Origin: Lepidurus packardi
Lineage: Eukaryota > Arthropoda > Branchiopoda > Notostraca > Triopsidae
Reading direction: 5' to 3'
Assembly: GCA_023053545.1 (NCBI GenBank)
Contig: JAKZAN010000002.1
Span: 6,382,790-6,446,789 of the forward strand
DNA: 64,000 nt
The notes under the pieces are model-generated. The model made no database searches. It saw only the letters and a list, made by a program, of their open reading frames with translations, and was not told the origin of the DNA. Positions 11,401 to 51,853 of this stretch are shown one piece after another. Made by a program: the position numbers and the translations under genes. Numbering within the stretch: the first letter of the stretch is position 1; each line of letters opens with the position of its first letter.

Positions 11401-14400
11401 GTAATTCCAACAAGGCCAACCGCTTGCTTGACAACAATTTTTTGTTTTACTTCACTCGGAACCGTTAATCGAGCTTAAGTCGCAACAACATAACATCACA
11501 AGGGGGAAAATGGACAGGTCCAGCTGTGGTAACAGGAAGAGAATTGTAACAACTTCAGCCATTTTTCCCCGTTGTTTATGTTGTGTTTAATTGGAAATTT
11601 TGTGAGAAATTTCTGAGAAAAGGAAACAGGAACTTCCTTGATTGAAAGATTGTCAAGTACTTACTATAAAAAAGTTTCAAAATTTTTAGCCTCGGAATAA
11701 GACTTGTTTTTAGCTTACTTTCCTTTACCTAACTTAACGTTGGGACGATGTTTCTTTCAGGTAGGTTATTTGTTTAGTGCCCTCAAGCGTTCGCGCACTT
11801 TATCCTTCATCCATTTGTAATGAAATCCGCTTGAAAAGGCTCGTGCCTTCTAAGCTCGACTTACGTTTTATTGATATTTTAAAACAAAGGAGAAGAAAAG
11901 CTTGTTAGATTCTTTATAACACGTAACAGAACTCTCAAATCTTAAAAAAATCACTATTAAAAGTCTAAAAGTCCAAAAGTCTATTAAATCTAAAACAATC
12001 ACTATATATTGAAAAGAAGACTAGTAATTTTAATAAATGTGTACAAATTTAGTTTTACAATTTCCGGAGCTTATGCTGTTGCGGCGGCATCTCTTTAATA
12101 ATTTTAGAATCTAAATACAGTAAAGACATACTATATTTAATACTAGTACAGCAACAGGAACTTAACCAAAATGGCTAACTGTAATATTATTAATGGCTAC
12201 TCGTAACCGTGTAAAGTGTATATAATGCTTTTGGAACGATAAAGTGAATTGAAAGAAAAAAAAAACATACGTATATATCGTTTACGAGTTTATAGCCCAC
12301 TACTTGCATGATAAAGAGAGCAGACCCCAGCCTTACTAAAAGTCTAAATTTAGGCCAGCGCGGAAAGGATTATTCATGCATAAGTTGCTTCGGGTGCTTA
12401 AATAATGGGTAGGTATAGTCTCGACTTCTTACACGGCTGCGGTTGGCCTCCATGAAATATGAAACAAAAATTGGTCGTAGGGAGGTCGTTAGAGGAGTTG
12501 CGTATTACCTGGACCAACCCATATATGGTGGAGAAGCGCAGGCCAACGCTAGCAACCAAATTCCTGACAGCATCCAAAGAGCTCGTGTTGGTGTGATGGT
12601 TCTCGTGTATTTCATAGGCTTCACGATAGCGTAATATCTACGGTAAACAATCAGGCATAAGAGTGCGCTTTAAGGATGAGTACTGCATGTGGATCATTGG
12701 GGAGAAGCTAAAAGAATATCTATAAAAGGGATGAGTAATCAGGTTAGTGTCTGTGGGAGATATGGCGTTCCGTATACGAGCTTTGGCAGGAGGGTTGGGG
12801 GTTGCTATGTGGTTCTTGCTTCATACACATGGTAGTGTTACTTGTTTATGACGACGGAGATGAAAAGAGGGGACTAATTCGCCCTGCCGACAGCTATATC
12901 CCTCAAATAGGGATTATTATTAGCCCCATAACATCGACCCCAATGGTAACACGACTTGTTTTCTTATTTCTCCCTTGTAGAAGTCATTGTTCTACTAACG
13001 TTGATGAGAACCAGGGCCTAAGTGTATATTACCCCAGTTTTGTCTGAATCTCCACCCTCCCTTTTACAGAAAAACTGGGTTAGCTACATAGGCCTAACCT
13101 TCTTTAGCTCCGTTAGTTCTGAATATTCTTTTTGTCTTCCAGTCCAATGCCTTTGGTCAACCGCTATTGGCAATCACTGGATACAAGGGATAAAAGAAAC
13201 CCATTTTTTTCCCCCTCTCACTTTGTAAAGGAAAGAACGACAAGTCACTCAGAGGATAGAACTACTGGGAGTCTTTTGGGGTGGATCCAATGAAGCTGTC
13301 TAGTCTCAAACGAATTCTTCTAGGTTTCTTCGCTGTCTTTTTTTGAAGAAAATAACTAAGCTTAAAGACACATTAAATGTAGGCTTTTGCTCCATTTTTG
13401 AGCAGGGTGTGGTCTCTGGACTAGATTTCTTCTTTTCCAGAAAGCTGTTTTGGGATCCGTGAAGGCTCACATAAGGAAAGAAAAGCCTATGTGAAATTTC
13501 CTACGTGGAAGCCTATGTGAAATTTTGTTTTATTTATGGCTTCTAAAAACGCCTATCCACATTGATTGCGGAGGGTTGAGTTTCATTTGTCGCTTGTTTT
13601 TTTCCTTAAACAGAGCCAAAAAATCGGTAGTGGCTTTTCGTGCCATTCCTGGAGAACTGACGACGTAAGAACGCCAGTTTTTTTATTTGCCAAAAAACTA
13701 TATGTGCGACGTTAGCACATATTTGCTGGGTTGCTATGATGGTTTGATTTTTATGCTTGGCTTAGTTTGTGGGTTACTATTATATCCAAAGGTTATTACC
13801 GCTGAGTATAAGGAAAGAAAGAATAATGGGCTCACATAAACTCCACGTTGGGCACGTGCCCTACGAGTTTGCTTGAAAAGAAAATTACTGTGGCAAAAAG
13901 CAGAATTGAAAAAGAAACAATTTTGGTACGCGTTCAAGTATCTTCCCTCAGCTTGTTTTCTTGATGTTGTTTGCATGGTGGCTTGGTTATTTCCGGGGTT
14001 TTCTTTGTTGGGAGGATTTTTTAACACATTCTCACAAACCTCTTCTAAAAAAAATACGCAGAAGATTCATATAAGAATGGTTATGAAGTAGTTTTACCTG
14101 TCGAAAGCGATGGCAGCCAAAGTGGCCGAGCTGGCAGTCGAGACAAGGAGTTCTGCAAATGCGCTAAACTGACACCACCACGTTGCACTCCAGTTGCCCT
14201 CCTTATCAACTTGAGTTAAAGGCGGCCACGACGTTCCGGACGCTGTAGATGCCAACACGCCCGGTAGGACTAACAAGGCAAATACCAAATTGGACGCCGT
14301 CAAACTCAACACCAACCTGTTATCGCCCGGGAATATATATAAAGAATAAATAACGGTATGCTAAACGAACAGACGTTTCAATGCCAGAACGGTATGTTTA

Positions 14401-24158: not shown

Positions 24159-26879
24159 ATCGTATGTCTGTCTTCATTCCAATACCGAGTATTCTCAGCA
24201 AGATTATCAGTAAGCTCAGCAAAAACAGGTAATGTATTTATTTTTAACTGGGAAGCTTTTATTTAATAAGCTTTTTTTATAAGTATAATATTGTATATTT
24301 ATAGCATAGTATTGCCCTAGCCAGGGACATGGGACAGATCTTGGTAAAAGTATCTTGAAATCGGACGTGTTTTTAGAGGGAATTTTAAAACTTTTAACGT
24401 AAGAATTACTTTCTTTCTGTTATGGTGTGTTGTGCATTTAAAGCCGGTATAACAAACCAGACAAGCTTTCGAACATGCAAACGTGAAACAAACTTACACT
24501 TCATTCCATCCTTCCCATACTTCCCAAGGCGTATTTTGCTCGCAGCAATGTTGTTTTGCTTGGTCGTTAAGCATTGATTTGCCAATGCGAAAGGGTAGGA
24601 CAGAGTATTTTGTGAGTGAATACCTTTCTCTGAATATGCATTGCTGTATAGCTGGTCTTGGGTAAGCTTATGTTAGAAAAGCATTGAGTTAATTTATTGT
24701 TTTCGTGTAATTTCCTTTCCCACATACCTAATCCGAATGGGCTCTATGGGACTCCGACCGTAAACTGCATTGTATGGCAGCGGCTTATGATTCAATTCCC
24801 GGGTTGTAGTCAGGTACAAGACTCACATTTAGTACTAGCTCTATTGACGTGTTCGTTGTAATTCGTGTCGGGTGAGCGGGAATTAAAAAATTTAACGAAA
24901 AACCGCAAATAAAACTAATTGAAGCGATTAAAAAAATAATTTAAAGAAACTATGTTCGTATCTCAATGTATTTCAAATCCCAAAGCAAAGTACTTTATAA
25001 ATCATACTTTGCTATACACTAATTGCGCGATAATAAGATTCTGTATTAAAAACAGCAAGCTCAATCAAAGCCGTTGGGTAGGATGCACGCCAGTAGGGAA
25101 TCTTAATCCGCAAACTTGCGAAAAAATCCCTGAGCTCGTCCATGTTAATCGTTAGTTTATGTTAAAGAAAGGTATAATAGTGGGCTACAAAAGCTTAACC
25201 CACTCGTGCCAATCACACTGGAGCCGCTTGAAACGAAATGAAAGTATCTGGATTATGCTGGCTAATTTTTATAGGCCTGTTGCTGCAAAGTTAAACCTAA
25301 GAAATGTTTTAGACAATTCCTTTGAATTTGAATAGTGCGCGTTACTGGAACGGCCGCAACCAGCGCTTTGTCCAACTTGCAGCCTCAGTCGCGCTCGCAA
25401 AGTCGAACAAGCTACATGTTCAGACAGAAACTATTGTTATGCAAAACATTATATATAGAATAGTTGTGTTTTTAGCTGCATTTCTGTAACTTAGTCTGTC
25501 TGCAGTTACGAACAACATTCCTGTTAATTTTTAAGCATTCTTTTGGCTTAATTTGTGGATTTTGTGCGTGTTTTCAGTGCGAAGTTTCATTCAAACGTTT
25601 GGGCGTGTATGCCTTTTTTAAAGTCTTAAACGGACGATTTTGTGAAATTTGGGCTGGACAAGCTCAAACATGATGCCGCTGGGTTACTCTTTTTCACCTT
25701 TTGCCTGCTCCAGTTGGTCATTATTATTTGAAATTTTTAGGAGAGATATCCTTATTTCTTCGCCTGTTATTCAAATGAAGCTGAGTGAAAACATAGCATG
25801 CCACGTGGGAGCGTTATGTGTGAGATTAAGGAAAGATATTTTTAAATGTATTTAATGAAATAGATCAGTAATAGTAAAAGGAATAAAATAGGTCAGTCCT
25901 CTTTACGTCGCAGCTCTCGTTCTTATGAATTCGGCTTATTAGTTAGTTATTTATACATGTAAACGAATGTTTATATTTCTTCATTCATAAATCGTCGTAA
26001 GCAATTGTAAGCTTTTTTGCTTAATCCCCAAGTGTGGCTAGGTGGCTAGGACTTTCCACAATTTTCGTTCCTATCCATTTGATGTATACAGTTACTTGTT
26101 ATTTGTACAGTTATTCATTGCCATTTTCCTTATTTTTTTTATTTTTTTTGGGGGGGGGGGAGGGGGGGGGGTAAAGTATTGCTAGAACACAGAATGCCAG
26201 AATACGGAATTTGAAAATCTACCCAACGCAGTGCCCCAATCACGTTGCTCGTTGCTAACGTTGCCATGGCCTCTGGCGAATGATACAGCCCTCTGTATGC
26301 ACTCGCCGCCACTTTGCGTAGTGGACGGAATTAATCCCGCCAGCCATTTTGTGAACAGACGCCAAGCCGACTCCACGTCAGGTAATTTGCTCCCGTTTTA
26401 TTCAAATTTTTCGACTCCCATCCGACTTTTATCAGACTGAAAGGCAAACAGACCTAAATATCATGCAATCAGCTTGCATATTATCACATTTTGTTAATTA
26501 AAAGTAACAATTTTGATAATGTTCGTCATTATTCCCAGGGGTAAGCGTCAGTAGATTTCGAACAATTTTTCGAACGTTTTCAAGTTTATTCGCTCCCATT
26601 GGCTACATATTGCCATTCATTCAATTAACAACTACTAGGAAGTTACCATATTCTGCCTTCCGTTTCCTCTAGATAGGTGAAAATTTTTGTTTATCCTATT
26701 TTTTCACAAAACGTTCAAAATCCGATTTGAGCAATTTCCAAATTTCTCTTAATTCCTCAATCCTCATCACTACCAACAAAGATACACCCCCGGAGTGTAA
26801 TCCCGTTTATGGATTTAAAAAATTATCAACGCAAACAAATTTATCATTTTTCCGGCTAAAAAACATAATATTACAAATT
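24159..26879. other. Intergenic stretch, no gene seen
   Basis: AT-rich sequence with short open frames only and no recognised protein, RNA or transposon. A G-rich tract lies at 26150-26171. Confidence 0.5.
26150..26171 (+). repeat. G tract (11 G, A, 10 G)
   Basis: Follows a T-rich run. The pure G blocks could form a G-quadruplex on the plus strand; it may also be a sequencing-sensitive homopolymer. Confidence 0.9.
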
Positions 26880-27010
26880 CCCGCATGGCCGCCATTGCCG
26901 GCCCAGGTCAAAGCTCCAGCGAACGTTTTTGTCCCCTGTCGCTTAACCCGAGTGCCCGCCCTGTTCCGCCATTTTGATTTGTTTAGTCGGGTGGGATGAC
27001 GTACTTTTTT
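26880..27010 (+). promoter_or_regulatory. CpG-containing, promoter-like stretch before the duplicated array
   Basis: A locally GC-rich segment in otherwise AT-rich DNA, with two YY1-like GCCGCCAT/CCGCCATTTT cores (near 26890 and 26970) and a TGACGTA site at about 26997. It sits directly upstream of the first spliced-looking blocks on the plus strand. Promoter role is inferred. Confidence 0.3.
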
Positions 27011-27298
27011 CGTGACTCAAATTCAATTTGTCAAAGCGTAAAACCGTGTTAAGTTCTGTTTAAAGATGAACAGTATTACTAAGAGTTGTCCCTTTTATAT
27101 TTACTAGGTGGTGACAAATTTCACAAACAGTTATACGTGCTATAACGTGTTAAGTGTGTGGTGCTGGTCAATTCGCTCCTGTTCTGCTCAGCCAACTTTT
27201 TCCCCTTGCCCTTTGCCATCCTTCTGGAGAAGGAAACGAGAACCGCCAATTGCTTATCTGCTAACCTGAGGCTGTGGGGAGATATTATTTCATCTTCT

Positions 27299-27560
27299 GT
27301 GGGAGCCGCCAGGAGAACCAGAAGAAAAGGTATGCCAGGAGTTCAAAAGTGTTGTGGCCGGTTAGGTCTTTTGCTGCAACATTTTAACTTCCTGGGGAAG
27401 CTTCCTGGAAACAGAAAAGCTTTCGCTGTGCTATGCAATAGGTCTTCCATGGCAAAAACAGCGGACACTTTTCTGGGGTCATGGGGTCAAACGGGCGGTG
27501 GAAGCCTCGACTGGAAAACGCGAAGACGTCGCCAGGCAGGGGAAAAAGATTCGTCTGTGG
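27299..27560 (+). repeat. Block A, copy 1 of the array
   Basis: Starts CTTCTGTGGGAG..CAGGAGAACCAGAAG, then GGTATGCCAGGAGTT, TTAGGTCTTTTGCTGCAAC and AACTTCCTGGGG. Diverged copies lie at 30284-30545 and 31789-32010. In all three a GGTATGC(C/T)AGGAG core follows a GA-rich purine stretch. Confidence 0.7.
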
Positions 27561-28845
27561 TCATTTCTGGCTGAGTAAATTTTCTTGCATTAAATCTAAA
27601 TATTGGTAACATTTTGAAACTAAACTTCCGTTTCTTTTACAGGCTTTCACTCCGTGTGGGTCCCTTAGTGCTCGGATTGTGGCGTGTTTTCAAGATTGTT
27701 GCTGTTTTGGTGGGGATCCACGTGTTCGCCCAGTCGGGTAAGAACTTGTTTTAATTTTTGTGGCTTTCTGGTTTCTTTCCCTAATCGAAGAGTCCATTTT
27801 GTGTTTGAACATGTTGGTTAACATGGTCGTAGAAGATAGATGGATTTTACAGTGTTTAAAGCAGCTCAGTTTTACAGTTTTTATTCTTATTTTATAGTTT
27901 TTATTCCTGTTCTTTTTTCATAGGACGCTCGCGGGACCGCGAGAAAAGTGACGACGAAGTCTCGGAAGGTTTTGGATCGTAGGAAAGATAAGCGAAAGGG
28001 GAGCAGAACCTGCACCTGGTCGACTTTGGGCAAAATCTCCGTCTTTCCCACACTTGCTATGTCTCCAGCCGGCGAAAATGGATACATTTGTGTCTTTTCA
28101 AAAATGGAAGTACATTTTGTGTATTATTATATGCTTTCGTCTGCGTTCGTCTTTGTTGGGCAATTCAAACTTAAAAAAAAAAAAAAAAAAAAAAAAAAAT
28201 TGGTAGTTTCTTGAGTTTGTGCAGAGAAAGCTTCGCTAGTGCTAGCCACGCGAAGCTTTTGGGCTTGGAAAAATGAAACAGTTCTTGGCCAGAAGTGTTT
28301 TATTTCGGTCAAACTTGCCGCATTGAGTCATTTTGAATTAATTTTAATCCCAGTGAGGGTCATTTCTTGCCCATTTTTGAGAAAGCGCCCGGAAGAGAAC
28401 GTATTGTGTTCATTGCAATTCTATTGATGCTTTTCTCGTTTATTTTCGTGTTTCCTTCCGAGTGGACTTGGGACCCCTGGGTGGATTTGACCCTCTGACG
28501 GTCTTACATTAAGTTTATGGCCTTTTCGGTGCTAATTTTCCCTAATCGGGTTTGGAAACAGTGGCGCTTTGTGTTGGACGATGCGTAATCCCTGTGATCT
28601 GGTCCCTTGGCGAACTTTCTTCAATTCCGCGGTATTTTCAAGATCTTTTCGGTGTTTTCAAGACGAAGTCGAGGTAACCTTTTCGTTTTCCCCAAATTGG
28701 TGTTAAATTTTCGAACCTTCATTTTGAGGAGATTTGCTTCTCATTCGAGTCTATATACGCATTCTTTTTAAGGGGCGCTAAAATGAAAAATACTAAATAT
28801 TAAAGCTGAAAATGAAAAATACTAAATATTAAAACACTTTTGACA

Positions 28846-29493
28846 TAATACGGATGCTTGTCCCTTTTGTTCTAGAATTCTCATCGAAAACGAAGTGAAA
28901 GGCTTTCAAATGGATTCACTGCGTTACTACCCAAGATTAGCTTCATGAAAAGCCTTTATGACGCTAAACTCCGCCCACTTCCGAAGAAGACGAGGATACT
29001 TGTGAGCCGCAGTTACCAGATTCGTCTTTGGTGTTCATTACGCAAGGTCCATTTTTTGATTTGAATGAACTCGATCTTTTCTATTAATATCTGCCTTGTC
29101 ATTGTCTATTAGGCTTGAGATAGAGCTCCGTTTGGCTACTATACCGTATTGGGAAATACCACGAGCAGGTCCGTTCAGTCTTCATGGTCGTCTGGGGTTT
29201 GGTGGGCGTGGTTGTGGGGCCGGTGGAGGACCAGCAGGCACGGGACGGTATTGCGTGTGTGGTGTTGAAGAGGGCAGAGTAAGTTTGAATTCTTTTTTTA
29301 AAAGTGTCTAGTAATGTTGTTGCTTTTATTCACGTAGGCTATCTATGGGATCTCTTGCGTTATTACTTAACAACATCTCCATGACATTTTGCCTTTATGT
29401 CTTTAAAAATTCCGTCCGTTAGAAGAAGCGAAGAGTCTTGTGAGCTGCAGTTATCCAATTCACCAGTTTCGCCATTGGTGTTCACTACTGGAG
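28846..29493 (+). repeat. Block B, copy 1 of the array
   Basis: Holds GGATTCACTGCGTTACTACC, AACTCCGCCCACTT, GAGCCGCAGTTA, TATTAATATCTGCCTTGTC, AGGCTTGAGATAGAGCTCC and GGTGGGCGTGGTTG in this order. Copy 2 (30600-31165) repeats the same order with moderate divergence. Parts recur at 29700-29930. Confidence 0.8.
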
Positions 29494-29699
29494 GTAAAGT
29501 ATTTTCATTGGAATATTTGCTTGGTCCTAGGCTCTTATGGGCTTCAGACGGAAACTTTCTTCAATTCCGCGGTGTTTTCAAGATTCTCGTACTCGTCCAA
29601 TGTCTCGAAGGGAAAAGGATGATCTAAATAAGTCGACTTGGGCAACGTCGCAATTGTCTCGAACTTGAGCTCCGCGCGCAAGTTAGTACTGTGCTTTGT

Positions 29700-29976
29700 G
29701 TTACTTACATAATACTGATGCTTGTCTCTTTTGTTCTAGAATTCTCAGAGCGAAAATTAAGTTAAGGAGGACACTTCTAGATTCTTATGAGCTGCAATTG
29801 TCAAATTCAACAGTTTCATCCATGGCGTCCATAACTGAAGGTAAACCATTTTAAAATTAAATGAACTAATTTTCGAAAATTAACATCCCCTTGATCATAG
29901 GCTATTGCAAGCTTGAGATGGAGGTCTGTTGCGCTAACATTGAGCTGGTTCTGTAATTCGGAATGTTCTTTGAAGG
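29700..29976 (+). repeat. Block B, partial copy
   Basis: Shares ACTGATGCTTGTCTCTTTTG and TTCTAGAATTCTCA with copy 1, then a GATTCTTATGAGCTGCAATT segment and GCTTGAGATGGAGGTC after an acceptor at 29900. It has lost the middle portion seen in the two longer copies. Confidence 0.65.
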
Positions 29977-30283
29977 GTAAGTTTTCGCTCCAAAAGGAGT
30001 TTTCCGTAGTGGAAATTTTTTTTGGAATGTATTCATGTTTTTCTCATTCCTCTTTGCTCTAGGCTTCCTCTTTTGAGCCCCTTGTGCTCTTTCCTCGCTA
30101 TTTAGTAGCGCAGGCATTCCTAAAGAAGATTATCCGTGCATCAATGGCGATTCCTCCAGCTGCAATACGCAAGATCATCGTCATCATCAGCTCTTCCCTC
30201 AACCCTTGCCTTGCCTTTCAGCACCGACGTAGCTGATCCCGTTGATTTTCTTCACGTCGCCTTTGATTCGGATTTCGGATTCG

Positions 30284-30545
30284 CCCTTTCTTGTGATGGA
30301 ACTGGAGACCCAGAGGGCATAAGGTATGCTAGGAGATTTGGCTGCGGTAAATCGCTTAAAGATTTGCTGCAGTCCAACTTTCTGGAGGGCAGAAAAGTTT
30401 CCGTTGCTGCATGATTCGTTAGGTCTTTAATGGTAGCAACGGAGCTTCTCTGTTTTTTGGGGGGCGTGGTTTAGGTGAATTTTGGATAGCCATGAAAGTC
30501 AGGCAGGCCAGGGTTGAGTTCATCTGTGGATTGAAGATGTGGAGT
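30284..30545 (+). repeat. Block A, copy 2 of the array
   Basis: GATGGAACTGGAGACCCAGA then GGTATGCTAGGAG, AGATTTGCTGCAGTCC, TTAGGTCTTTAATGGTAGCA and GGGGGCGTGGTTTAGG, ending at a GTAAGTTTT donor (30543). Related to 27299-27560 and 31789-32010. Confidence 0.65.
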
Positions 30546-30599
30546 AAGTTTTCCTCTTATTTTTTGTTTATTGAATATTAATAGTTTTATTTGTAATTC

Positions 30600-31165
30600 A
30601 AAAAGGCTTCTCAACCGGATTCCCTGCGTTACTACCCAAGATTATCGTCATTTGAAGCCTTTGTGAGGCTAAACTCCGTCCACTTTAGAAGAAGACAAGG
30701 ATTCTTATGAGCCGCAGTTAGCCGTTTCACCAGATGTTCATAACGCAAGGTCAATTTTTTAATTTGAATGAACTAGATCTTTTTTATTAATATCTGCCTT
30801 GTCATTGTCTAATAGGCTTGAGATAGAGCTCCATTTGGCTACTATTCCGTATTGGGAAATACCGCGAGCAGGCCCGTTCATTTTCAGTGTGTTAAGTCTT
30901 AAACGGTAGCAACGGAGCTTCTCTGGGTTTTGGTGGGCGTGGTTCGGGTGCATTGTGGGGCCTGTGGGGGACCAGCAGGAAAGGGGCGTTATATTCGGGT
31001 GTGGTGGTGAAGAGGCGGAGTAAGTTTTGACTTGTAATTTTTTTAATTCTCTATAATAGTGTTGTTGTTTTTATTCAAATAGGCTATCCATTGCTATCCT
31101 GCGTTATAACTTAACAACATCTCAATGACATTGTGCATTTGTGTTGTTAAATGCCGTCCATTAGA
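30600..31165 (+). repeat. Block B, copy 2 of the array
   Basis: Order-preserving, diverged copy of 28846-29493, including the intron-like gaps 30750-30815 and 31020-31082 at equivalent places. It has an extra GTGTTAAGTCTTAAACGGTA insert compared with copy 1, so the copies are not fresh assembly duplicates. Confidence 0.8.
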
Positions 31166-31788
31166 AGAAAGCGAAGCCATAAGAGGTGGCTCGGTTTTGG
31201 CCCTCGATCCACGTCGTAGTAGAATTCGCCAGAAGTTTTGGTTGGCAAGCCGTTCTCTTATTCGTTACCATGGATTGACGAACCCGAACCGAAGCTGCGT
31301 AGCACTGCATTTTTTTGTGTATAAACACCAAACCGTGTCCGGATAGGTTCAAGAAAACGAATCCACAAGTTTGTTGCCTTTGAACGGATGTGCACCCTGA
31401 AGAACCCCTATAACGTCAGTTGCTCTCTAGCAAGCAGTCAGTGCAGACTTTTCCGGCGACCTTGTGAAAGCTAGTAGTGAGTTTATAGTTAAACATTACC
31501 CAATCGTGTTGAACATTAACAATAGGATTAAGCGTTATCTTCGAAAACATTAAGAATTGGATCTTCGAAAACCTGGAAGCAATTCAAGTGCGCGTTTAAA
31601 GTGTTAAGTGTGGTGTTTGGCAAAAGGCTCGTCAGGCCTACGCCAGTAAAAAAAAAAGAAAGAAAATGTGTTGGTGTTAAGTGTGCTCTCTACTTCATCC
31701 CTGCCTTACATCATCCTTCGCAGTCGACAAAATTTGCAACTTTAATCTGCTAAGCTGACATTCTGTTACTTGGAGGTAGCTACTTACC

Positions 31789-32010
31789 TTCTGTGGGAAT
31801 CAGGAGAACCAGAAGGAACAGGTATGCCAGGAGTTAAAGTGTTGTTGACCGGTTAGGTCTTTTGCCGCAACTTTTAATTTCCTGGGCGGCGAAAAGTCTT
31901 TGTTGTTGCCATTCATTAGGTCTTTAATGGTAACAACGAAGCTTTTCTATGGTTAACGGGTGGTCAACGAATTTGGGGAGCCTCTATTGAAGAACGCAGC
32001 CCAGGCAGGG
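31789..32010 (+). repeat. Block A, copy 3 of the array
   Basis: CTTCTGTGGGAATCAGGAGA, GGTATGCCAGGAGTTAAAGT, GGTTAGGTCTTTTGCCGC and TTAGGTCTTTAATGGTAAC. It runs straight into a 94-bp tandem duplication. Confidence 0.7.
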
Positions 32011-32198
32011 ATGGAAGTTTCGTCTGTGGAAGCATTTGTCTGATCCTTGGATTTCTTCATGCCCTTTCTTCAAATCCCAGTGTTTTCAAGAGCGAAAAGT
32101 GCAGATGGACGTTTCTTCTGTGGAAGCATTTGCCTGATCTTGGGATTCCTTCATGTCCCTTCTTCAAATCTCAGTGTTTTCAAGAGCGAAAAGTGCAG
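32011..32198 (+). repeat. 94-bp tandem duplication
   Basis: Units 32011-32104 and 32105-32198 both run from ATGGA(A/C)GTTTC through CTGTGGAAGCATTTG to CAAGAGCGAAAAGTGCAG, with a few substitutions. Confidence 0.9.
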
Positions 32199-32553
32199 CG
32201 ATAGACCGTTGCTTCGGGTTGGCCCCTTGGTGAGCTTTCTTTGCATTCAGCGGTGTTTCCAAGATTGCCTGCGAAGCCAAAGTCAACTTTTGTAAATCTG
32301 AGTGTTCGCGAAGTCGAGGTAAAAGAAAATCCTTTTCTTTCCCATGTCGTTTAGATTTTGATTCGTTTGTATACATTTCGAACTTACTTTTTTCTACTTT
32401 ACGTTTTGTTCCAGGATCTTTGGTAACGTTAATCGACTAAAGTGGGTGGAAGGTGGCGAAAGGGGGAGGACAACTGGGTGTTGCGACGTTCATACGATGT
32501 CCCGAACGGGAAATGCAGCAGTGAGGTCGACTTGATGAACGTCTCAAACTTGT

Positions 32554-32763
32554 GCAACTTGTGTTATTGTTTTTTATTTGTCTGTCGGAAGTCTACAGAC
32601 ACAAAACTCGGCAAGTTTTCTCCTTCTCCAAAGTCCTTTGCCTTTTCACACGTTTTCTGCAACTTGTGTTGTTGTTTTTCATGTTTCACCGGAAGTCTAC
32701 AAACGCGAAGCAGGACAAGTTTTATCCTTTCATACGTTTTGTGTTTTCACTCGTTTTGGGAGC
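32554..32763 (+). repeat. 105-bp tandem duplication
   Basis: Two diverged units starting GCAACTTGTGTT at 32554 and 32659, each with GGAAGTCTACA and (A/G)CAAGTTTT. The repeat length is a multiple of three. The pyrimidine-rich sequence is open in all three plus-strand frames, so an open frame here is not evidence for coding. Confidence 0.8.
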
Positions 32764-33224
32764 CTTCCTCTGTGGATGTGTTTGGGTCACACTTATTTGT
32801 AAGTTTTAAACATTTTGTTTATGAATTGATTTCATGCGTAATGATATTTTTCTCTCTTCTTTTAGCTTTCGGTGGCGAAATGAATGAGGAAGTAATCCTG
32901 TGCCAAGAGGTCAACATCTCCTAACGAATCCGATTTCAGTTTAAAGGTCATGGGGAGCTTCGGAGTGATGGTAGTAACATTTTAAATGTACATTTATAAG
33001 TTTTTACTACTCATTGTTTCTTTCAGGCGAGTAAATAGAAGGCTGTTTGGATTGAAGTCAAATATGGATCACAAGATTTCGAAGCCATTTTTAAGATTAC
33101 TGTGAAGGATAGCAAAGAGCCGACTTACATGCAGTTTGTATTGTTGAGTTTTTTTTTTTTAATTTTAAATTTGTTCACTTTTCCCTAAGTCACGCTTTAG
33201 AATCGCCGCTTCTTCATCGTTGGA

Positions 33225-33735
33225 GGTTTTCACTATGGCGGTGGCTAACCTTAGACAGCAGTGGCGGTCTTTGGCGGGCAATTCCTATTGAAAACATCGT
33301 TGGAGGTTTTCACTAGGCGGTGGCTAACCTTAGACAGCAGTGGCGGTCTTTGGCGGGCAGTTCGAACGTTAATTTCATGATGAAGATATCGTTGGGTGGT
33401 TTTCATTGTGATGGTGGCTAACCTAAGACAGCAGTGGCGGTCTTTGGCGGGCAATTCATGATGAAGATATCGTTGGGTGGTTTTCATTGTGATGGTGGCT
33501 AACCTGAGACATCAGTGGCGGTCTTTGGCGGGCAATTCATGATGAAGATATCGTTGGGGGGTTTTCATTGTGATGGTGGCTAACCTTAGACAGCAGTGGC
33601 GGTCTTTGGCGGGCAATTCCTATTGAAGACATCGTTGGAGGTTTTCATTGTGATGGTGGCTAACCTTAGACAGCAGTGGCGGTCTTTGGCGGGCAGTTCG
33701 AACGTTAAATTTGGCGGTGGCTAACCTAATCAGTG
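33225..33735 (+). repeat. Minisatellite, about 80-bp unit, six copies plus a partial
   Basis: The core GTGGCGGTCTTTGGCGGGCA begins at 33261, 33340, 33434, 33515, 33596 and 33676, giving spacings of 79, 94, 81, 81 and 80 bp. Each core is preceded by GGTGGCTAACCT and followed by a (C/A)ATCGTTGG linker. The longer spacing is due to an extra GTTCGAACGTTAATTTC segment, which also follows the last unit. A partial GGCGGTGGCTAACCTA closes the array near 33712. Confidence 0.95.
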
Positions 33736-34418
33736 CGATATCCGTGTTCCATGTTCGTCCTGCGATATCAGTGTTCAGTTTTGTGGCTACAATGCCTGAA
33801 ACCCTATCTGGAGCGATTGGCTGAGTGTCAACATCAACGAGGTGAGAGACGCCAGTATTGCTCGCTGGCTGATGGCCAGGGATGCGAATCTACTGCAGGG
33901 GTTTAGTTCTTTGCCAGGACCGGAAAGGAAAGCGAAATTTAAGTTTTCTTTTGAATTAACAATGCGTTTGAGTTTTACAATTTCATCAATTGATCTTTTT
34001 TTTTTATTATTATAGTTGAAGTGGAAATGAAGCAACAATCTCAAGTGATCCATCGCGGTATTGCCTCGTTCCCATGATGCGAATTTCTCCGCAGCGTGTC
34101 AGAGAACCGCAGATCGTCCAGCTTCCAGAAGGTGAATTAATTTCACATATACATAAGGATGTAATAATGGTGAATTACATTGGAAGAACGACAAACAGTA
34201 GATGACAACTTTTGTTAGGCAGATGACCTGATCAAGGAGGAAATGATTGATTCTCCATTCGAAATCTGCGTCCAGGATCGGATCAATTTGCTCGTCATTT
34301 TCGTAATTTAATTTGGTCCCTTACAAGATTATGGACTCGTCGGCCTTGTGTCACAATCCGGCGGCCTTCTTTCGAGTCGTCCTTGTCTCGCTTTGCCATT
34401 AGCCCTAGCCCCCTTCCA

Positions 34419-34581
34419 GAAGCATTGCTCTAGCGCTGTCTTCCAAATCTGCAAAGCACCCTGTGGGTTCGACGTTTTGTATTATTGTAAGAGTTTTGAG
34501 AAAGAATTGTTTCATATTTTTTTTTTGTTTGTAAAATATATCACTCCAGAAACATTGTTCTAGTGCTGCCTTCTAAATCTG
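34419..34581 (+). repeat. Short direct duplication, 128 bp apart
   Basis: CCAGAAGCATTGCTCTAGCG (34419) and CCAGAAACATTGTTCTAGTG (34547) begin matching segments of about 35 bp that continue CTGYCTTCYAAATCTG. Confidence 0.85.
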
Positions 34582-34743
34582 TTAGAATTTTTGTTCTGTA
34601 ACCTTTCTTAGCTCTAAAAATTGGATTCTAATATTGTGCAAATGAGATTGCTTCTCACTGGAATTCCTTATTTGTTGTACCAAATGTTCCCCGTAAAATC
34701 TAGTTTCCAAAAATGTTATTTTTGTATTATTTGTAATTTTTGC

Positions 34744-34749
34744 AATAAA
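34744..34749 (+). terminator. Poly(A) signal, possible end of the duplicated array unit
   Basis: AATAAA followed by a T/G-rich stretch (TGTGAAAATTTTGAATGTTT), a good animal cleavage context on the plus strand. There is no protein gene to which it obviously belongs. Confidence 0.4.
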
Positions 34750-35130
34750 TGTGAAAATTTTGAATGTTTTTGCGTGATTTTTCAAAAATCCGCTAGAAAA
34801 GGAGGCGTGGTTTCCGAAATGGACGAATCCTATTGGTGAATTGGACCAAAAAGGGGGCGTGGCTCCTTTTCGAGCTGGGGAAGCGTTTTCAGGGCTTTTC
34901 TCCATAAGGAATAATGCTGTATCAAGGGGGTCCCCTTCAAAAATCGTGAAAAATTGAGAGCCTCGCCCCTTTCCCTGTTCCCAACTCCCCTGCTCGGTTT
35001 CCTATCCACGATATTCGAGCTCGTAATGCCGAAGCATCACAATTTCGAATATGGGAATAGGAACGGGAAGGCATTTGGTACGGGCAAAGGGAGCCATTTA
35101 ATATTTCGCTTTTTCGACGAAATAAAGTGC

Positions 35131-35198
35131 TTCGACCGGGAATCGAACCGAGGACCTCTGGGTCCCCAGTCGTGCGTGTTATCCACGCGGTCATGGGC
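35131..35198 (-). pseudogene. tRNA-like relic or tRNA-derived SINE head
   Basis: On the minus strand a perfect B box GGTTCGATTCC (35149-35139) follows an arm GCGTG-GATAA-CACGC like a D arm, and a CTGGG-GA-CCCAG hairpin where the anticodon arm should be. The T stem has a mismatch and no acceptor stem closes properly, so it is not a working tRNA. It could be a decayed tRNA or the 5' part of a SINE. The minus-strand conceptual peptide GDPEVLGSIPGRS is just a read-through of this B-box region. Confidence 0.6.
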
Positions 35199-37043
35199 TT
35201 ATATTCAATAGTGGTTGAAACATCTATAAATACAACTATGAAGTGAGCCAGTGTACAGTGTTGAGGGTAGCTTCCATCTTTTGTTCGATTTATATAAATT
35301 TGACGGTTCGCCCATTGCCATGACATGTATTTTCTAGAAGTTTGTATTGTATTTATTACGTTGTATTATATTTAAAAGTGTAATAAAAAAGCCTTCCTTA
35401 ATTTTGGATTGTGAGTCAAAATCGTTGGAAATAGTTACAAGGCCATTTGTTTGTTTTACAGTATTTCTAATAAAAGCTCACAAATCCAAGTTCTCCTACA
35501 TTACTGTTACCGCAGTTTGAAACACTAAAAAAAGGAAAAAAAACTGGTCGTGACTTTTTTCGATTTCGAAGAAAATTAGATGCAGGAAATGCATTGGTTT
35601 CACATTGAAGAGGCACACCAGCGCCACGGAGTTCCGTCTCTGTGGGGTTCAAAACTTTAAACCCCAAGCAGTAAGCCATACGTTATTATAGAGAACAAGA
35701 GAAGCTATTTGGAAGGAAATCTGTTACTTTTTCCACAGGAATAGTCACTCTTATAGTTGTGTCATTATCTAAAATCCTATAGCGTAGGTAAATAAAAGGC
35801 TGACGATTTCCTGCGACGGTAAGCAACAGGCTCTGCTCTAAGATTGCAGTTCGGCAACAAATAATGCGATCTGCAAGGACTACTAAAAAGACGCCCCAGT
35901 AATTTCTACAATTTTTCTAAAAATAATTCAAAATAATTTATAGAGGTGTAGACATTTCTTAGGTTGTATAATTATACACATCGATATTGAAGAATCACAG
36001 TACAAATTTCTCTCGACTAAACTATATACAAGATTTGGGGAGATTTGGGAGGCGCAGGGATGGCAAATTTCTGTCTTTTTGTTCGATAGATTGCATCAGC
36101 AGTAGCTGTTTTTAAAATAGCTTCAAACTTAAGTAGAACTGAAGTATAAATGGATGGCGAAAACTAAACGGCCGGCTTTGGTACAAATCTGCTTTTCAAA
36201 GGCCACCCTGTGATTATTGCTTCCTTGGAATGCTTCCTCACAAACTTCAATCCTACCGTTTTAGTCTAATTGACGCGAGGGGGGAAATTTATCACGGAGG
36301 AACACAAAGGAAGTATGCCCCTAATTAAACAGAAAATTAACCTAACGACGAATTGGCACAGTGAAAAGCTACCGGAGTCAGAAAAGGATGAGCCAACACA
36401 ATCAAAAGGGGGTTTATAAAGTCAAGCGGAAATTAACAAAATATGCAATTGCAAAATATGATCTTTTGGGAACTATATACACCACTATAGACATTGGACG
36501 ACTAGTTTGGGTTTGTTTCTGGGGGGGGGGGGGGGGGGGGGGGGTGGAGTTTTGGAGCTGACAAAATGCATAAAGAAGCGAAGGCTTGGATGGTATAACA
36601 TTATCTTCTTAAAAAAAAAAAACTTTTTTCCCGCATTCATGATTTTAAACAGTAGTAGCAAACCCAAGGAGAAGATCTGAAATGCGTTTTTGCTTTTTCA
36701 TCGGTATCTTGTGGCTAACTTCTCCATCCCCTTCACATAACAGTTTATTTTGTTTTGGCTAAACTAGAGATCTCTTACTTTCTTCCCCAAGAAAAGGAAA
36801 TAAGAAGAATCTATTACACTTCTTTTGTCACTTGCTTTGATCCAAAATGCAGGCAAACACTTTCTTGACTTGAATAATGGCCGGGTCGCGAGTTTTCTCT
36901 TCTCTTCGTAGTTTACACCCAAACCCTTGGACCAAAATCTAAATTTTTGGGTTCTTGTTGTTATTCCGTCCAGCGGATTGGGGGAGCCAAGCTGTGCCTT
37001 ACAAATGAGAACAGATTCGTGCATTATATTTTAGCAGGAAAGG
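35199..37043. other. Intergenic stretch, no gene seen
   Basis: AT-rich DNA between the tRNA-like relic and the 3' end of the LRR gene. A run of 24 G lies at 36521-36544. Confidence 0.5.
36521..36544 (+). repeat. Run of 24 G
   Basis: An uninterrupted poly-G tract; length is likely variable and sensitive to sequencing error. Confidence 0.95.
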
Positions 37044-37094: not shown

Positions 37095-39132
37095 TCAGAG
37101 TTCTGTTCGTGGATATGGTTTCATACTATTCTGCATCGTCACTCCTCTCATGATGCACTCCGCTTCACTGCAGCAAGTGCAGGCTTTATGGTAATCCGGG
37201 GCCAAAGGTCGGCTACTTAAAGTAGACCCTACACTGAGGCCCCGTCCCAAATTCGTCGGCGCAGGTGTCCATTTGGCAGGATGGTGCTTATGACTGCTTC
37301 GACTGGAGCACAAAAGTCGAATACGACGCCGGTAATGCCATGCGAGCAACAATAAGCCTACTACGAGTATGGCTGACGCGCACGCGAGGCCAATCACCAA
37401 GCCTTGAGGCACACCGGGTATTTTGCAATTCAATGCTTCATCCGACAAGCTCTTCAAGTTCTGGCCGTTCAACGGCGGCGGAGCAGTACACAACACTGCG
37501 CCCGCTGAGTTGCTGGCTACCAGGGCGCCCGGCGCCGCGCTGTGGCGAGGATTGTTGCTATTAGCATGCATTAATGGTTCTGGAGCAGTTTCCACAGCCA
37601 AACCGGGACTACTCCGCAAGAAGGCGTCACCTTGCTCTGGCATTTCTGCGCTGTTTAACAATTCGATCGCTTCCGATGGAGATGAAGACTGCGAAGAAGT
37701 TGCTCGTAACGCTTGAGGAGCAATTTTACCACGTGGGGCTATCGATCCTCCTGCTCCCCCTCCGAAACTTCTATTTCTGCCTTGTCGGTTGAGTAAATCT
37801 CGGAGCCAGGCTAATTGGCAGCCGCAGAGAAGGGGGTTCTCGGACACATCCAGAGTGACAATTTGCGACCACGGCGCCAAATTCTCTGGGATGTTAGTCA
37901 ACCCGTTGTCTCGCAGATGTAATTCCCGGAGAGATGGCAAGCCCGTAAACAATCCTTCGGGCAAAGAGCTTAACCGCTTGCAGCCTGTGATTCGCACCAC
38001 TTGCAAATCCCGGTTGGCTGTCAGCGCTCCCGGGTAGACCGACACGAGGCTTTGGGCACCTTGGATTTCCAGAATCCGCAGTCGATAGAGACCACGCAAG
38101 ACACTGGCTGTGAACTCGACGAATCCGTTCCGACCCAGAGACAGTTCCTCCAAATGCTGTAATAATGAGAGGGGTTGTGTGGGAACGTGGAGCAGATTGT
38201 TATCGTGGAGCTTGAGAACGCGCAACTGGGACAAGCCGCGGAAAGCGTCATCCGACACATTGCGTATAGAGGCGCTGCTCAAATCCAGGTTGACTAAGCC
38301 TTTCAACGAGGCGAACATGTTGGCGAGCAAAACAGGGAGCTCATTGCCGGCCAGGTTCAATTCCGCCAGGGAATCGAGCGGAGACAGGGCAGGTAAGAGG
38401 GCTGGTACCCGGCTGAGTTGGTTGTCATCCAGATAGAGGTTCCGCAAATCCGGTAAGCCTGCGAAAGTGGCCGGATGCAGGTAATCGATGCGGTTTTGAC
38501 CCAAGTCGATTTCGCGGAGTTTCGGAGCACTGGCGAACGTCCGTTCTTCGAGGGTTTCCAAGAAATTATTCCGCAATGATAAGACGCTCAAGCTACGTAA
38601 GCCCGTCCAACTGCGGTTGGATACGAAAGCGATTTTGTTGTTATCCAAATGCAGTTCAATCAACTTTTTTTGAAACTCGAAACTCTTGTTATTGATCGTC
38701 ACGAGCCTACGGAGGATAAAAAAACGCACCACATGAGATCCATTATATATCATATATAAAGAAGAATAGAAAAACAGTGCAGTTCTTCTTTTCATACTTA
38801 TTGTGGGACAAGTCAAAGAAGACAAGCTCGGGGTAAAATCGCATTGTTGTGTCAATAGTTTTAATCCGATTACGGCCCAACATTAGCCGCTATAGAAACA
38901 TGAGATTTCAATAAATTAAACATTATAGAGATTTAAAAATAAAGAAGAAAGCAAATTTTACTTGAACAGATGGGTTAAAGGTGATGGGAACAACTTCCAA
39001 ATTGACATTATCGCACGTGACTTCCAAGGTTTCGTCATCACAAAGGCAGCCAGCTGGGCAAAAAGCCCATACGGGCTTGAAAACCAATAAAACGGCGACC
39101 AAACAACACAAAAAAGGCGGCGACATGTCCAT
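37095..39132 (-). CDS. Leucine-rich-repeat transmembrane protein, Tartan/Capricious-like
   Basis: Single-pass surface protein, probably for cell recognition. Exons 39132-38962, 38889-38798 and 38706-37095 join in phase to 624 residues; introns are 72 and 91 nt. A signal peptide (about residues 1-23) is followed by an LRR N-cap with four cysteines (CPAGCLC..VTC), 14 leucine-rich repeats (for example LVFFDLSHNKL, LIELHLDNNKI, LRELHLRDNGL), an LRR C-cap (C382, C384, C494, C515), a 21-residue membrane helix (about 523-543) and an 81-residue basic tail. The tail ends in TEL, a class I PDZ-binding pattern. There is no immunoglobulin domain, which favours Tartan/Capricious over Kekkon or LRIG types. 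The C-cap is unusual: about 109 residues separate its second and third cysteines instead of some 20-25. A further 5' untranslated exon is possible. Confidence 0.88.
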
Positions 39133-44446: not shown

Positions 44447-45177
44447 TTAAGGATGCAATACTTTAGCTTACTGATGGGATAGATGCAAAGATGGCACTGA
44501 CGTTTGTTATTCTTTTGCACAAACACGTTCTCTGGGCTTAATGACAAACGTGTGTAACGTATCCCGCTGTCAAAACTTACACTACTGTGTCATGTTTCGA
44601 ACAAAGAATTTTTTTCCAGGTAATCGAGTGAAAGAAAGTACAAATTTTAACAATTTGATCAACGAAAAAGGATGAGAATCGTTAACCTAACCTAGATCGT
44701 TTCCAATCCAATCCAATTTTTAACTCGAATGACACCTGTTTGTCATTCTTCTTCCGGAGAACGTTTTGCAACCATATGACACAGTGTCAGTTAAAAGCTT
44801 CTAACCTTGTTTTGCTTCTGAGAAGTACAATGTGTCACCACAGTTTGCTGTAGCAGCACAATATCCCAAATCAAGTCGTCAAACTTCCGGAACATTTCCG
44901 AAAACAGCTGGTCAGATTTGAAAGCAAACTAAAAAAAGTTGTCTTTTATTAGCAGCTGGGGCAGATTTTTAGGTAACGTATTTCTTATAGTTGCAAACTT
45001 CATTTGCATATTTCTAATTTATTACTTAAAAAGGTTTGCATTGGCTGTGTACTACAGTTAGTCTCAAGATTACCGTCAAAGAATTGTTTCTTTCAATGCA
45101 CTGGTTTTCTAAAAAAGTTGTTTCGAAATTCCCATGCTAACCGCCTATACAGAGCTAAAGTTATACGGGAGCGTTAA
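44447..45177 (+). mobile_element. TTAA-flanked non-autonomous element, copy 1
   Basis: Ends in inverted repeats: TTAAGGATGCAATACTTTAG on the left and CTTTAGC read outward to CTCCCGTATAAC..TTAA on the right. TTAA at both ends fits the piggyBac target site. 731 bp, no coding frame. Inner landmarks shared with the other copies: AGATGGCACTGACGTTTGTT, CAAATCAAGTCGTC, TTGCAAACTTCATTTGCATA and CATGCTAACCGC. Confidence 0.8.
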
Positions 45178-48100
45178 GCAAACAATTCTTAGGTGTACAA
45201 TAATGTGCTATGGCTTTTATAAGGTACGAATAGAAGATTGGATCATGAGAAAGTACCCGGGAAAGCGTAAATGAAAGGAAGTTAAGGCAAACTGCAGCAT
45301 TCTTTGGGCTGAAACCATAGCTCTTTTTTCGTAGCAAGATTTACACCCAGCTGGGCTATCACTTCTGCAGACTAAGCACGAAAAGTCAGACAAAACGTTT
45401 AATTGAGCCTGCTGTGTCAGCAAGAATGAGCGAATGCATGGCCGAGTATGATAAAGGCTTTTCCTCTCCTCGAACCCACCAAATCCTAAGGGTTAAAAAT
45501 ATATCAAAATAAAAAGCTTCCGAAGGTCTGTTAATTCATGGGAGGGAATAGGATTACAAAAGTCCTCTATACTTCTACATATATTCCTTTTCCCTCATTG
45601 CCAAAACAGATCAAAAGCTCCCGGGCTCTATCCCACGTCTGGCATCGCGTTTTAATTTTCCCTCAAAACCCAAGTAGGATATGTGGTTTTAGAAAATGAC
45701 AGCTTTTCCCATGAGACCAACTGCGTTCTGATTAAAACCATTCTGTCGTTCTTACAAACAGACATTAAGTCCACATTCCATGCTAACTCATTAAGAATTC
45801 CGATATAAAACAATCTCGACCTTATCCCAAAAGGATTACAAATTATTTTTTGGACACCCCCAAAAAAATGCACTAAAAAAGCAAACGCTGTATCTTCACT
45901 TTTTTGTTTTTATTTTGTGGAAGCAATGTACCCAACCAACCCAAGTCATTTTAACTTGAACTGCTTACAGGGACCAGTGCAGGAAATGAATTATTGATTG
46001 CTCTCTAAAAATACTAGCTCAGGAGAAAAAATAAAATAAAGACAGCAGGGAATCGACAACTGCAATCAGATTCTTCTTGGAGACTTTTCCTTCTTTAGTT
46101 TCCCGGAACGAAGCAAAAGATTTGGCCATCTATAAGCATCACTACTAGGGCCTGCAAACCGTAAAAGTTCACTTTCACTGATCCTGATGAAGCTAAAAAA
46201 AAAAAGCTCTTTTACAATGTGACCAGTCGCCTGTCCGTCAAGGGGAGAGAAGATAACCAAAAGACTCTTTTGTTCCTAGTCCTACTCGCCAAAAACTTTC
46301 CAAAACGGTCTCACGATGTTTTCAAGAAATGTTCCATGCATTTCTGTTGTGTGGCTCAAAAGCTCGCTGAAAGTTTGGGATGATAATTATAAAGAGGTCT
46401 TCTTTGTCTAAACCTTCAAACGTCATGGCACAAAAGGTGGACAATAACTTCCTGGGATTCTAGGAAGGGTTCAACCACAACGTTAAGTTGGGAATAAATA
46501 AATGGGAGGTCCTAATGTGTTTTTACGATCGAACCAATAACTATCGAGGAGTTTCTGACCCTTTTTACAACGCAGGAATTGATCTTGGTGTGCTGAACCG
46601 TTGCAAGACAAAGACTAATTTCATTTGGGTGGAGTGCAAGTAGGTAAGTGGTCAGCAATTTAACATTCTTCTTCGTTTTCCAAGAGCCCCATCTGCTCTG
46701 TCAGGAAACAGGGAACACAAGTTGAGAAAGAATAGTGCCAAAAACTCGCCCATACTCATTTTCCACCGTCTGGGAACAGGTTCGGGAATTTGAAAACTTT
46801 CTAAAAAAAACAAACAAAAAACAAGAGAAAAACTCTTCCCTAAAGAATAAAACATGCACACTTTTCCTTGCTTCAACGAGAAGCTATAGACACTTTGCGG
46901 TGCTATTTCTATGCTATAAAATGCTCTTATTAAAGCCACCCAACAAAGAAGTGTGCTGGTGTGGTCACATTTTCAGGTTGTTCGTCAACGGAGTTGCTTG
47001 GCTAGATAAGGTTTCAGTTCCTTTAGCGTCTGGTCAACACCACCATGGACACCCTATACTGTACTTGCTTATCGACACCCAAAAACAAGACGACGAGGCC
47101 TATTAATGCGTTTTTACGTTCCTTCTTCGTTCTGTCCCTTTTCCCCCACCTGTGTCCTTATTTGGCAGGACTTTAATCGCACCTATGCGACGGATAGCCG
47201 GGAGACTTTTCAACTGAAAAGCAAACTGAAAAGCAAACTGAAAAGCAAGCTGAAAAGTGACGGAGACCACTCACATTAAGCATATGGCGGATGAAAAAAA
47301 ACTTAGTGGAAGAGCGAGAGAGACAGGAGAATTTCTAGCGCTGTTCTACACCGCATATTTGACTAGGTAAATTTCCCTTTTTGGGGTCGTGGGGACTTTT
47401 CAAACGTTTTTCAAGTACCCAAACTTGAGCAAACAGCGCCCATCCTCTTTGGTCAATAAATAATCATAATAAAAAAGACTAGACGACACAATGGCCCTGG
47501 CTTGCTTCTCAACAAATGACTAAAGGCATCTAAAGAACAAAGACGAACGAAAAGTCTCCTGACGTTACACCAACAGTCCACTTATGCGCAGTCTAAAACT
47601 GTCGACACGAAAAGTGACACAATAGGCTTGGCTTGTTTGCCGGGTCAAATTTCTTCGCTTAGGAAACTCCCCAACTACGGTATATAGTGTCAAATTTTTA
47701 ACAAGCCAGGCTTCTAAAAAAGTAAGCTGATACTTTTGACCTATTAACAATGGAAACGCAATGCATGCCATGCTGTAGTAAACTTTACTTCACTGTACAT
47801 TATTAACTTAAACTTGGCTTTAAACGGAAAAGTGATTAGCCTACCAGAAAACACCTTTGCAAAAATGGATGCGAATTAACGATCTCCACATCGCAGTAAA
47901 AAGCAACAATGAAAAGTCGCGCACGGGTGAGCTTTTGTCAGCTCTTTTACTCTCGCCCTCGTCCGGAACGCACACGATACCCTTCTGAATACCAACTCGG
48001 GGTAAAAAAAAAGCAGCCAAGATTTTCTTCCAGAATTGTTCGCGAAAGTCGTGCAGCAGCCATTGTCTGCAATCCTACGAGCACAACAATGAAAATTCCA

Positions 48101-48805: not shown

Positions 48806-49320
48806 TTAAGGCTCCCGTATACCTTAGCTTATTTTTCGGGAACGAGTCACAGATGGCACTGATGTTTGTTATTGTTTTGCCAAAGCCTTGTGTAAGAAAT
48901 AAAAAAATAGATATCTAATTGCCGACAAAGTCTATAAGCTTGTTTTGCTTCAGAAAAGTACAACTTATAACCAAAGTTTGCTGTAGGATCACAAGGTCCC
49001 AAATCAAGTCTTCAAAACAGCTTTTCAGATTTAAAAGCAAACTAAAATATTGTGTTTCCTTTATTGTCAGCTAGTGCCCAATCCAAGGGCAGATTTCTAG
49101 CTAACGTATTTCTCATAGTTGCAAACTTCATTTGCATATTGCTCATTTATTACTCGTTGGAAAAAACTGTGCATTGGTTGTGCACTACCTGTTAGCAAGC
49201 TCAAGATTACTGTCAAAGATTTTTTCCTTAAATGCACTGCTTTTCTCAAACCGTTGCTAATCGTTGCAAAACGTTGCTAACCATGCTAATCGCGTATAGC
49301 GAGCTAAGGTATGCTTCCAA
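48806..49320 (+). mobile_element. TTAA-flanked non-autonomous element, copy 2
   Basis: Left end TTAAGGCTCCCGTATACC then TTAGC; right end GCTAAGGTATGCTTCC. Same orientation and inner landmarks as copy 1 (CAGATGGCACTGATG, TTGCAAACTTCATTTGCATA) but shorter (about 515 bp). The right TTAA has been lost or mutated, so this copy looks older or damaged. Confidence 0.75.
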
Positions 49321-51394: not shown

Positions 51395-51396
51395 TA

Positions 51397-51851: not shown

Positions 51852-51853
51852 TA

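Follow-up and report, generated by a model that had tools for sequence, protein, structure and literature searches.

What kind of gene, if any, arises when blocks carrying splice-like junctions are copied again and again within a few kilobases? This question is raised by a locus at 27.0–34.76 kb on the plus strand of a 64,000-nucleotide stretch of contig JAKZAN010000002.1 from the notostracan Lepidurus packardi (hereafter the window), which an earlier note had read from the letters alone as duplicated blocks with conserved splice junctions and had taken for a non-coding RNA or a very fast-evolving gene. Our computational analysis makes it probable that the locus is a spliced, polyadenylated long non-coding RNA (lncRNA) gene, which was enlarged by repeated internal duplication of exon–intron blocks. 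New in this analysis are two long hairpins that can be formed by one of the blocks, block V, in all three of its copies; these twin hairpins are probably a recurring functional unit, kept in three copies by selection on RNA structure. A literature search, in which subscription journals were thinly covered, found no paper on this locus.

Results

Direct repeats of six block types

Self-repeats cover 3156 of 7745 bases (41%) in 27.0–34.75 kb vs 2330 of 56,255 bases (4%) in the rest of the window. The array was confirmed by self-BLAST with 26.5–35.5 kb as query and the whole window as target (E ≤ 1e-4), in which all block pairs were direct and on the same strand, among them 28898–29433 with 30602–31176 (78.8% identity, E 5e-136), 27294–27560 with 31788–32029 (72.6%, E 2e-28) and 30290–30451 with 31788–31948 (70.5%, E 2e-10). 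The earlier note had counted at least two block types occurring two to three times; the recurrence stands, and the count was too low, as there are six types in up to six copies: V in three copies, U in five (U3 and U5 being partial), W in three, X in six, Z in two and R in six (Table 1). W2 is a weak match to W3, seen in the pair 29780–29926 and 30700–30831 (69%). The six X copies, picked partly by eye, start at 27655, 28594, 29538, 32048, 32142 and 32216, and have a mean column identity of 63%.

Growth by internal duplication, as proposed in the earlier note, is supported. Within the window no block copy was found outside the locus, which weighs against a transposable-element or satellite array rather than a gene, a very improbable explanation. 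Although R is an ordinary minisatellite of ~80 bp, the mixed block order, the GC-poor GT–AG segments and the AATAAA gap of the plus strand, both described below, do not fit a satellite.

Twin hairpins of block V

Two hairpins, HP1 and HP2, can form in every V copy; all six have 22–24 pairs in 57–64 nt, with CCAGGA/UCCUGG or the like at the base of HP1 and AGAAAAG/CUUUUCU or the like at the base of HP2. Folding as good as that of each of the six hairpins was found in 2 to 21 of 3000 background windows. The folding persists through divergence: HP1 of V1 and HP1 of V2 show 29 aligned differences, yet their energies are −26.3 and −28.3, and when HP1 of V1 was drifted by 29 random changes, −28.3 was reached in none of 1000 trials. 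Of the 12 ordered copy-to-copy comparisons over both hairpins, which are not independent of one another, 11 beat simulated drift at P ≤ 0.024, and the twelfth gave P = 0.07. A stricter test, asking how many pairs are kept given the changes in the stem, gave P = 0.0014 and 0.0034 for HP2 between V2 and V3. In the consensus structure 89.8% of cells are paired vs 38–51% with slid partners, and two-sided compensation occurs in 7 of 43 pairs vs 3.1 after shuffling (a value as high in 3 of 500 shuffles), figures that come from only three copies and a structure derived from the same three. The covariation evidence for V is positive but modest.

The whole block folds with z of −5.06 in V2 and −3.03 in V3, and V tops the plus-strand windows of a 120-base sliding scan (31821, 30321 and 30381; z −4.1 to −3.8). 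The summed hairpin energy is −145.5 on the plus strand vs −103.4 on the minus strand. A covariance model gave 105.8, 120.4 and 145.3 bits for V1, V2 and V3, the three copies from which it was built, and found no further V copy within the window, all three being on the plus strand; its other matches were to those hairpins read on the minus strand (22.3, 13.2 and 11.9 bits) and, with filters off in 26.5–35.5 kb, matches of at most 5.5 bits. A further strong hairpin, HP2-base-like by eye, was seen at 28218–28266 in the third putative exon (AAGCUUCGC...GCGAAGCUU).

Hairpins of 57–64 nt with 22–24 bp are of the size accepted by Dicer-type enzymes, and six of them in one transcript could suggest a host of small RNAs, with microRNA-like or small interfering RNA (siRNA)-like precursors cut from V. 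In microRNAs, the arm with the mature strand is expected to be the conserved part. The reverse is found in HP2, where the loop UAGGUCUU is constant in three copies while the arms change, and five of the six V hairpins have this motif at their apex or close to it. Nor did Rfam give any family at its gathering score in the window, the sole match at E ≤ 5 in 26.5–36 kb being ARRPOF with 17.9 bits vs a gathering score of 127.2, and inverted repeats of at least 40 bases, a possible siRNA source, were absent from 26–36 kb. We therefore regard a small-RNA host as improbable.

Strand, ends and putative introns

On the plus strand AATAAA is missing from 25,882 to 34,744, a gap of 8862 bases; no other such gap in the window, whichever strand is taken, exceeds 3808 bases. 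Between 27,000 and 34,740 the plus strand has none vs 3.2 expected from the dinucleotides of the region (P = 0.043), and the minus strand has 11 vs 7.6. The AATAAA at which the gap closes fits the end at 34744 given in the earlier note, and the plus strand that it had chosen is supported by this strand-specific gap and by the composition contrast between introns and exons described below. The plus strand of the region has T > A and G > C throughout. The start near a CpG-bearing stretch is plausible and unproven: the 250-base bin 26800–27049 has a CpG observed/expected ratio of 1.49, second to the bin at 32300 (1.5) within 25.8–35.8 kb, and transcription would begin within 26880–27010. Inside the locus, the sequence upstream of V3 (31320–31787) is weakly like that upstream of V1 and has TATAAA at 31320, which makes it a possible second promoter.

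The splice signals named in the earlier note are present, namely the donors GTAAGTTT at 29279 and 31020 and the acceptors before GCTATC (29338, 31083), GCTTGAG (29113, 30816) and AATTCTCA (28876, 29740). Across the four aligned copies of the donor after V/W, GTAA.TTT is retained, and an island of 41 bases (33 intron and 8 exon bases), 95% identical, is common to both AATTCTCA acceptors. From block homology and signals we chose by eye a tentative model of 17 exons and 16 GT–AG introns of 53–246 bases, in whose predicted exons the local repeats would lie. The cores of the 16 putative introns, trimmed of 8 donor-side and 20 acceptor-side bases, have a mean GC of 25.5% vs 32.8% in length-matched candidates drawn from the 96 GT[AG]A..AG candidates of the region, where P = 0.0006 is flattering because the introns were hand-chosen, and vs 42.5% in random segments (0 of 5000 as low). 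This contrast is partly independent support for splicing.

Tandem exon–intron units with short introns are also seen in hosts of small nucleolar RNAs (snoRNAs) such as the SNORD116 host. However, a C/D scan, with no separate H/ACA scan, found a C box in none of the 16 putative introns, and the single low Rfam match mentioned above lies far below its gathering score, which leaves a snoRNA host extremely improbable.

Coding potential

The blocks could also be duplicated exons of a rapidly evolving protein-coding gene, and our first spliced model did contain an open reading frame (ORF) of 153 amino acids vs a 95% shuffle value of 133. That frame arose from exon starts placed 1–2 bases off, and vanished once the boundaries were corrected, when the longest spliced ORF was 93 amino acids vs a shuffle median of 87 (P = 0.38). 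In the youngest pair of copies, which includes the putative introns at 29047 and 30750, substitutions are flat over the three codon positions (9/7/8, 9/9/5 and 5/5/4), the ten indels, one of them inside a putative intron, all have lengths not divisible by three, and no conserved reading frame links the two copies. Pfam gave no match above cut-off in the nine plus-strand ORFs scanned, of 16 listed; three weak matches all fell on one ORF (best E 0.071). The non-coding alternative of the earlier note is thus supported, and a coding gene is very unlikely indeed.

Sequence motifs and the R array

Near the 3′ end lies R, a GU-rich array of 80-nt units in six copies. V and R have GGTCTTT in common and showed no other likeness in the self-BLAST. 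Exons hold 10 instances of this heptamer vs 1.0 expected, of which V accounts for four and each of the six R units for one, an excess that comes mostly from copies by descent. Exact TAGGTCTT is likewise enriched (6 vs 2.1 expected; 3 of 100 shuffles as high) because the copies are related by descent, and the loop motif with two mismatches allowed is not enriched (89 vs 102.6 expected). UUAGG is an hnRNP A/B-type motif; it is not enriched in exons (5 vs 6.2 expected), so that an hnRNP A/B-type sink is without support. Two-tetrad G-quadruplex patterns in 27000–34745 number 52 on the plus strand and 5 on the minus strand, in line with the G-rich plus strand. The arthropod telomere repeat TTAGG has its complement in the R units (33239–33730), as CTAACCTTAG or CTAACCTAA, probably by chance. 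A stem in block U, AAAGGCUUU/AAAGCCUUU, was noticed by eye in U1 and has one compensatory pair in U4; when folded, U1 and U4 show it and U2 and U5 do not, and for this reason we do not claim it for the block.

Weighing the evidence

Several observations weigh against a functional spliced transcript. The splice-signal counts are near chance, with 12 good plus-strand donors vs 10.4 expected and 15 good acceptors vs 10 expected (sd 3.2 each, neither significant), and therefore their density proves nothing. The donors GTCCAT after U1 and GTCAAT after U4 are weak, the end of V3 has no donor at the place equivalent to the V/W donor, and the introns 29494–29739 (GC 0.43) and 33842–34015 (GC 0.42) are doubtful and probably wrong because their GC is exon-like. 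Identity in the youngest pair is 46/52 over its four junction windows vs 450/530 over its full length, and the best conserved segment is the intron from 29047 (61/66). The claim that splice sites were retained while the sequence between them drifted is thus not borne out in this pair, and the conclusion drawn from it, that splicing mattered, has only moderate support, since junction identity is not clearly raised and signal density is near chance. ATTAAA is present on the plus strand inside the region, and AATAAA and ATTAAA together number 4 vs 7.1 expected.

The hairpins have their own weak points. Single hairpins of at least 18 bp are not rare (249 of 3000 background windows), the whole-block fold of V1 has a z of only −1.86, and one of the six hairpins folds slightly better on the minus strand, the other five folding better on the plus strand. 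In the sliding scan 14 of 132 minus windows vs 10 of 132 plus windows have z < −2, and the lowest z of all belongs to the minus window at 26901; taken together, its windows thus show no strand bias. GU vs AC cells number 16:4 (P = 0.07). The other ten pair-keeping comparisons gave P of 0.014 to 0.72, a mixed outcome, compensatory changes fell below 0.05 in two of 12 comparisons, and RNAalifold gives a small covariation term, −1.86 when the block is taken in full and +0.35 when the hairpins are aligned.

The points on splicing could be accommodated if the region were dead or had never functioned, that is, if it were a once-spliced gene, coding or not, with blocks multiplied by unequal exchange that have persisted by chance and are no longer in use. 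The weak donors, the missing donor at the end of V3, the chance-level signal density and the youngest-pair junctions, which are not clearly better than their neighbours, would all be expected of such a relic. On the other hand, the V hairpins beat drift in nearly all comparisons, the AATAAA gap ends at a polyadenylation signal, and the intron composition contrast persists. We consider a dead region unlikely, and keep the repeat-built lncRNA gene as our probable reading. The repeats, the organisation of the plus strand, the missing coding signal and the survival of the hairpins are shown by computation; transcription, splicing, protein binding and a role in the cell are inferences from them.

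Table 1 Coordinates (window numbering) of the blocks, putative introns and ends of the candidate lncRNA gene.
Feature	Position	Strand	Remarks
Candidate promoter/start region	26880–27010	+	CpG-bearing (CpG bin); ATGACGTAC site, motif read from sequence
Block V1	27294–27560	+	Twin-hairpin domain; HP1 27334–27397, HP2 27412–27475
Putative intron	27575–27642	+	GTAAAT..ACAG, GC-poor core
Block X1	27655–27712	+	
Putative intron	27738–27923	+	
Putative intron	28674–28875	+	End resembles acceptor region at 29740
Block U1 exon	28876–29046	+	
Putative intron	29047–29112	+	Weak donor GTCCAT; 61/66 with 30750–30815
Block W1 exon	29113–29278	+	V remnant at end
Putative intron	29279–29337	+	GTAAGT..GTAG
Block U2 exon	29338–29493	+	
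Block U3 exon	29740–29840	+	Only second half resembles other U copies
Putative intron	29841–29900	+	GTAAAC..ATAG
Block W2 exon	29901–29976	+	
Putative intron	29977–30062	+	Top-scoring donor of region
Block V2	30290–30535	+	HP1 30328–30387, HP2 30389–30450
Putative intron	30544–30605	+	GTAAGT..AAAG
Block U4 exon	30606–30749	+	
Putative intron	30750–30815	+	Weak donor GTCAAT
Block W3 exon	30816–31019	+	V remnant at end, 3′ arm of HP2 retained
Putative intron	31020–31082	+	GTAAGT..ATAG
Block U5	31083–31176	+	First part only; opens long exon to 32318 (tentative model)
Block V3	31788–32029	+	HP1 31826–31886, HP2 31892–31948
Tandem duplication, 94 bp	32010–32198	+	Bears X4 and X5
Putative intron	32319–32414	+	GTAAAA..CCAG
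Block Z, two copies	32550–32757	+	76.6% alike
Putative intron	32799–32865	+	GTAAGT..TTAG
Putative intron	32974–33026	+	GTAACA..TCAG
R array	33215–33715	+	Six ~80-bp copies in putative exon, GGTCTTT in each
Putative last intron	34132–34218	+	GTGAAT..TTAG
Polyadenylation signal AATAAA	34744–34749	+	Next on + after 25,882

Neighbouring features

The locus is flanked by two genes on the minus strand. The left neighbour (10052–14360), divergent from the lncRNA candidate, has rhodopsin-type receptor ORFs at 10052–11386 and 14097–14360, the latter being an exon like transmembrane segments 2 and 3; its nearest relative among solved structures is GPR161 (phmmer E 7.9e-10), and its matches to Pfam 7tm_1 are below the curated cut-off. 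The right neighbour (37095–38882), convergent with the candidate, is a long ORF for an LRR transmembrane protein (LRR_8, E 7e-45) whose best relatives among solved structures are ectodomains of Toll-like receptor 3. By themselves, these neighbours and the short introns would suggest, as a guess, an arthropod source.

ARAGORN called no tRNA by default or in its -t and -t -i modes, and gave 12 and 326 low-score calls in the mitochondrial and lowered-threshold modes; a minus-strand segment at 35127–35199, not called by default, looks tRNA-like by eye and is possibly a tRNA-derived short interspersed element. Dispersed repeats of 67–405 bases in both orientations, 70–87% alike, lie in 44447–58769 and are probably a family of interspersed elements. 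DNA patterns of R and V had no match in viral or prokaryotic contig collections, and the W pattern and the LRR protein had none in viral contigs; the collections being viral and prokaryotic, nothing follows from this on absence in animals.

Discussion

By analogy, the locus would belong to a known kind, the repeat-built lncRNAs exemplified by Firre, roX and the repeats of Xist, with which we compare it in mechanism only, claiming no homology. The statement of the earlier note that no named system has this layout was too strong, because Firre, an lncRNA with exonic local repeats, is described in PMC4820808. According to the same text, the RRD repeat of Firre/FIRRE has many instances in one locus and is rarely found elsewhere (see also PMC7734150), and overlaps 7 of 13 human and 11 of 23 mouse exons; for local repeats in Firre, multivalent protein docking has been proposed (PMC4820808). 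The present locus is similar in that its repeats occur many times within one locus, as judged in the 64-kb window, and overlap many predicted exons. Firre differs in being mammalian and in its RRD of 156 bp, whereas here the recurring units are whole exon–intron blocks and a pair of hairpins forms the candidate domain. The RRD binds hnRNPU and serves nuclear retention; the likeness to our locus would be one of way of working.

In Drosophila roX1 and roX2, a short motif in repeated stem-loops carries the function, and more repeats work better (PMC4719309). Repeated stem-loops with a short motif, amid other sequence of fast turnover, are what the locus appears to have in common with roX. The motif itself differs, as the V loops carry UAGGUCUU and not the roX box, GTTNTACG, which is absent from V and has one match in the region (27130) among five on the plus strand of the window. 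For Xist, PMC6316617 presents the expansion of local repeats as a way of binding proteins multivalently, and such expansion is the likeness to our locus. The monomers of the Xist A-repeat are 24-nt cores split by U tracts and not exon–intron units. The hsr-omega transcript of Drosophila, which is non-coding, carries tandem repeats and is linked to hnRNPs, also resembles the candidate lncRNA. Its repeats are of 280 bp vs ~80 bp in the six copies of R.

The likeliest way of working, on the model of these RNAs, is multivalent protein docking: the spliced RNA may serve as a scaffold or sink, in which the copied V hairpins and the 3′ R array would offer multiple docking sites for one or more RNA-binding proteins, in the manner proposed for the repeats in Firre, roX and Xist. 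It is decidedly unlikely, in our estimate, that the locus encodes an architectural or chromosome-acting RNA of an invertebrate lineage with no known counterpart among roX, Xist and Firre, in which a twin-hairpin module with the UAGGUCUU loop was multiplied alongside the exon–intron units and held by structural selection.

To our knowledge, lncRNAs that arose through multiplication of a structured module are few, and most of them come from mammals or Drosophila. Because a hairpin domain is present here in three diverged copies within a single candidate gene, structural constraint can be tested in it without recourse to other species. The V domain proposed here would provide a concrete probe both for the pull-down of binding proteins and for a search for the RNA in relatives of Lepidurus.

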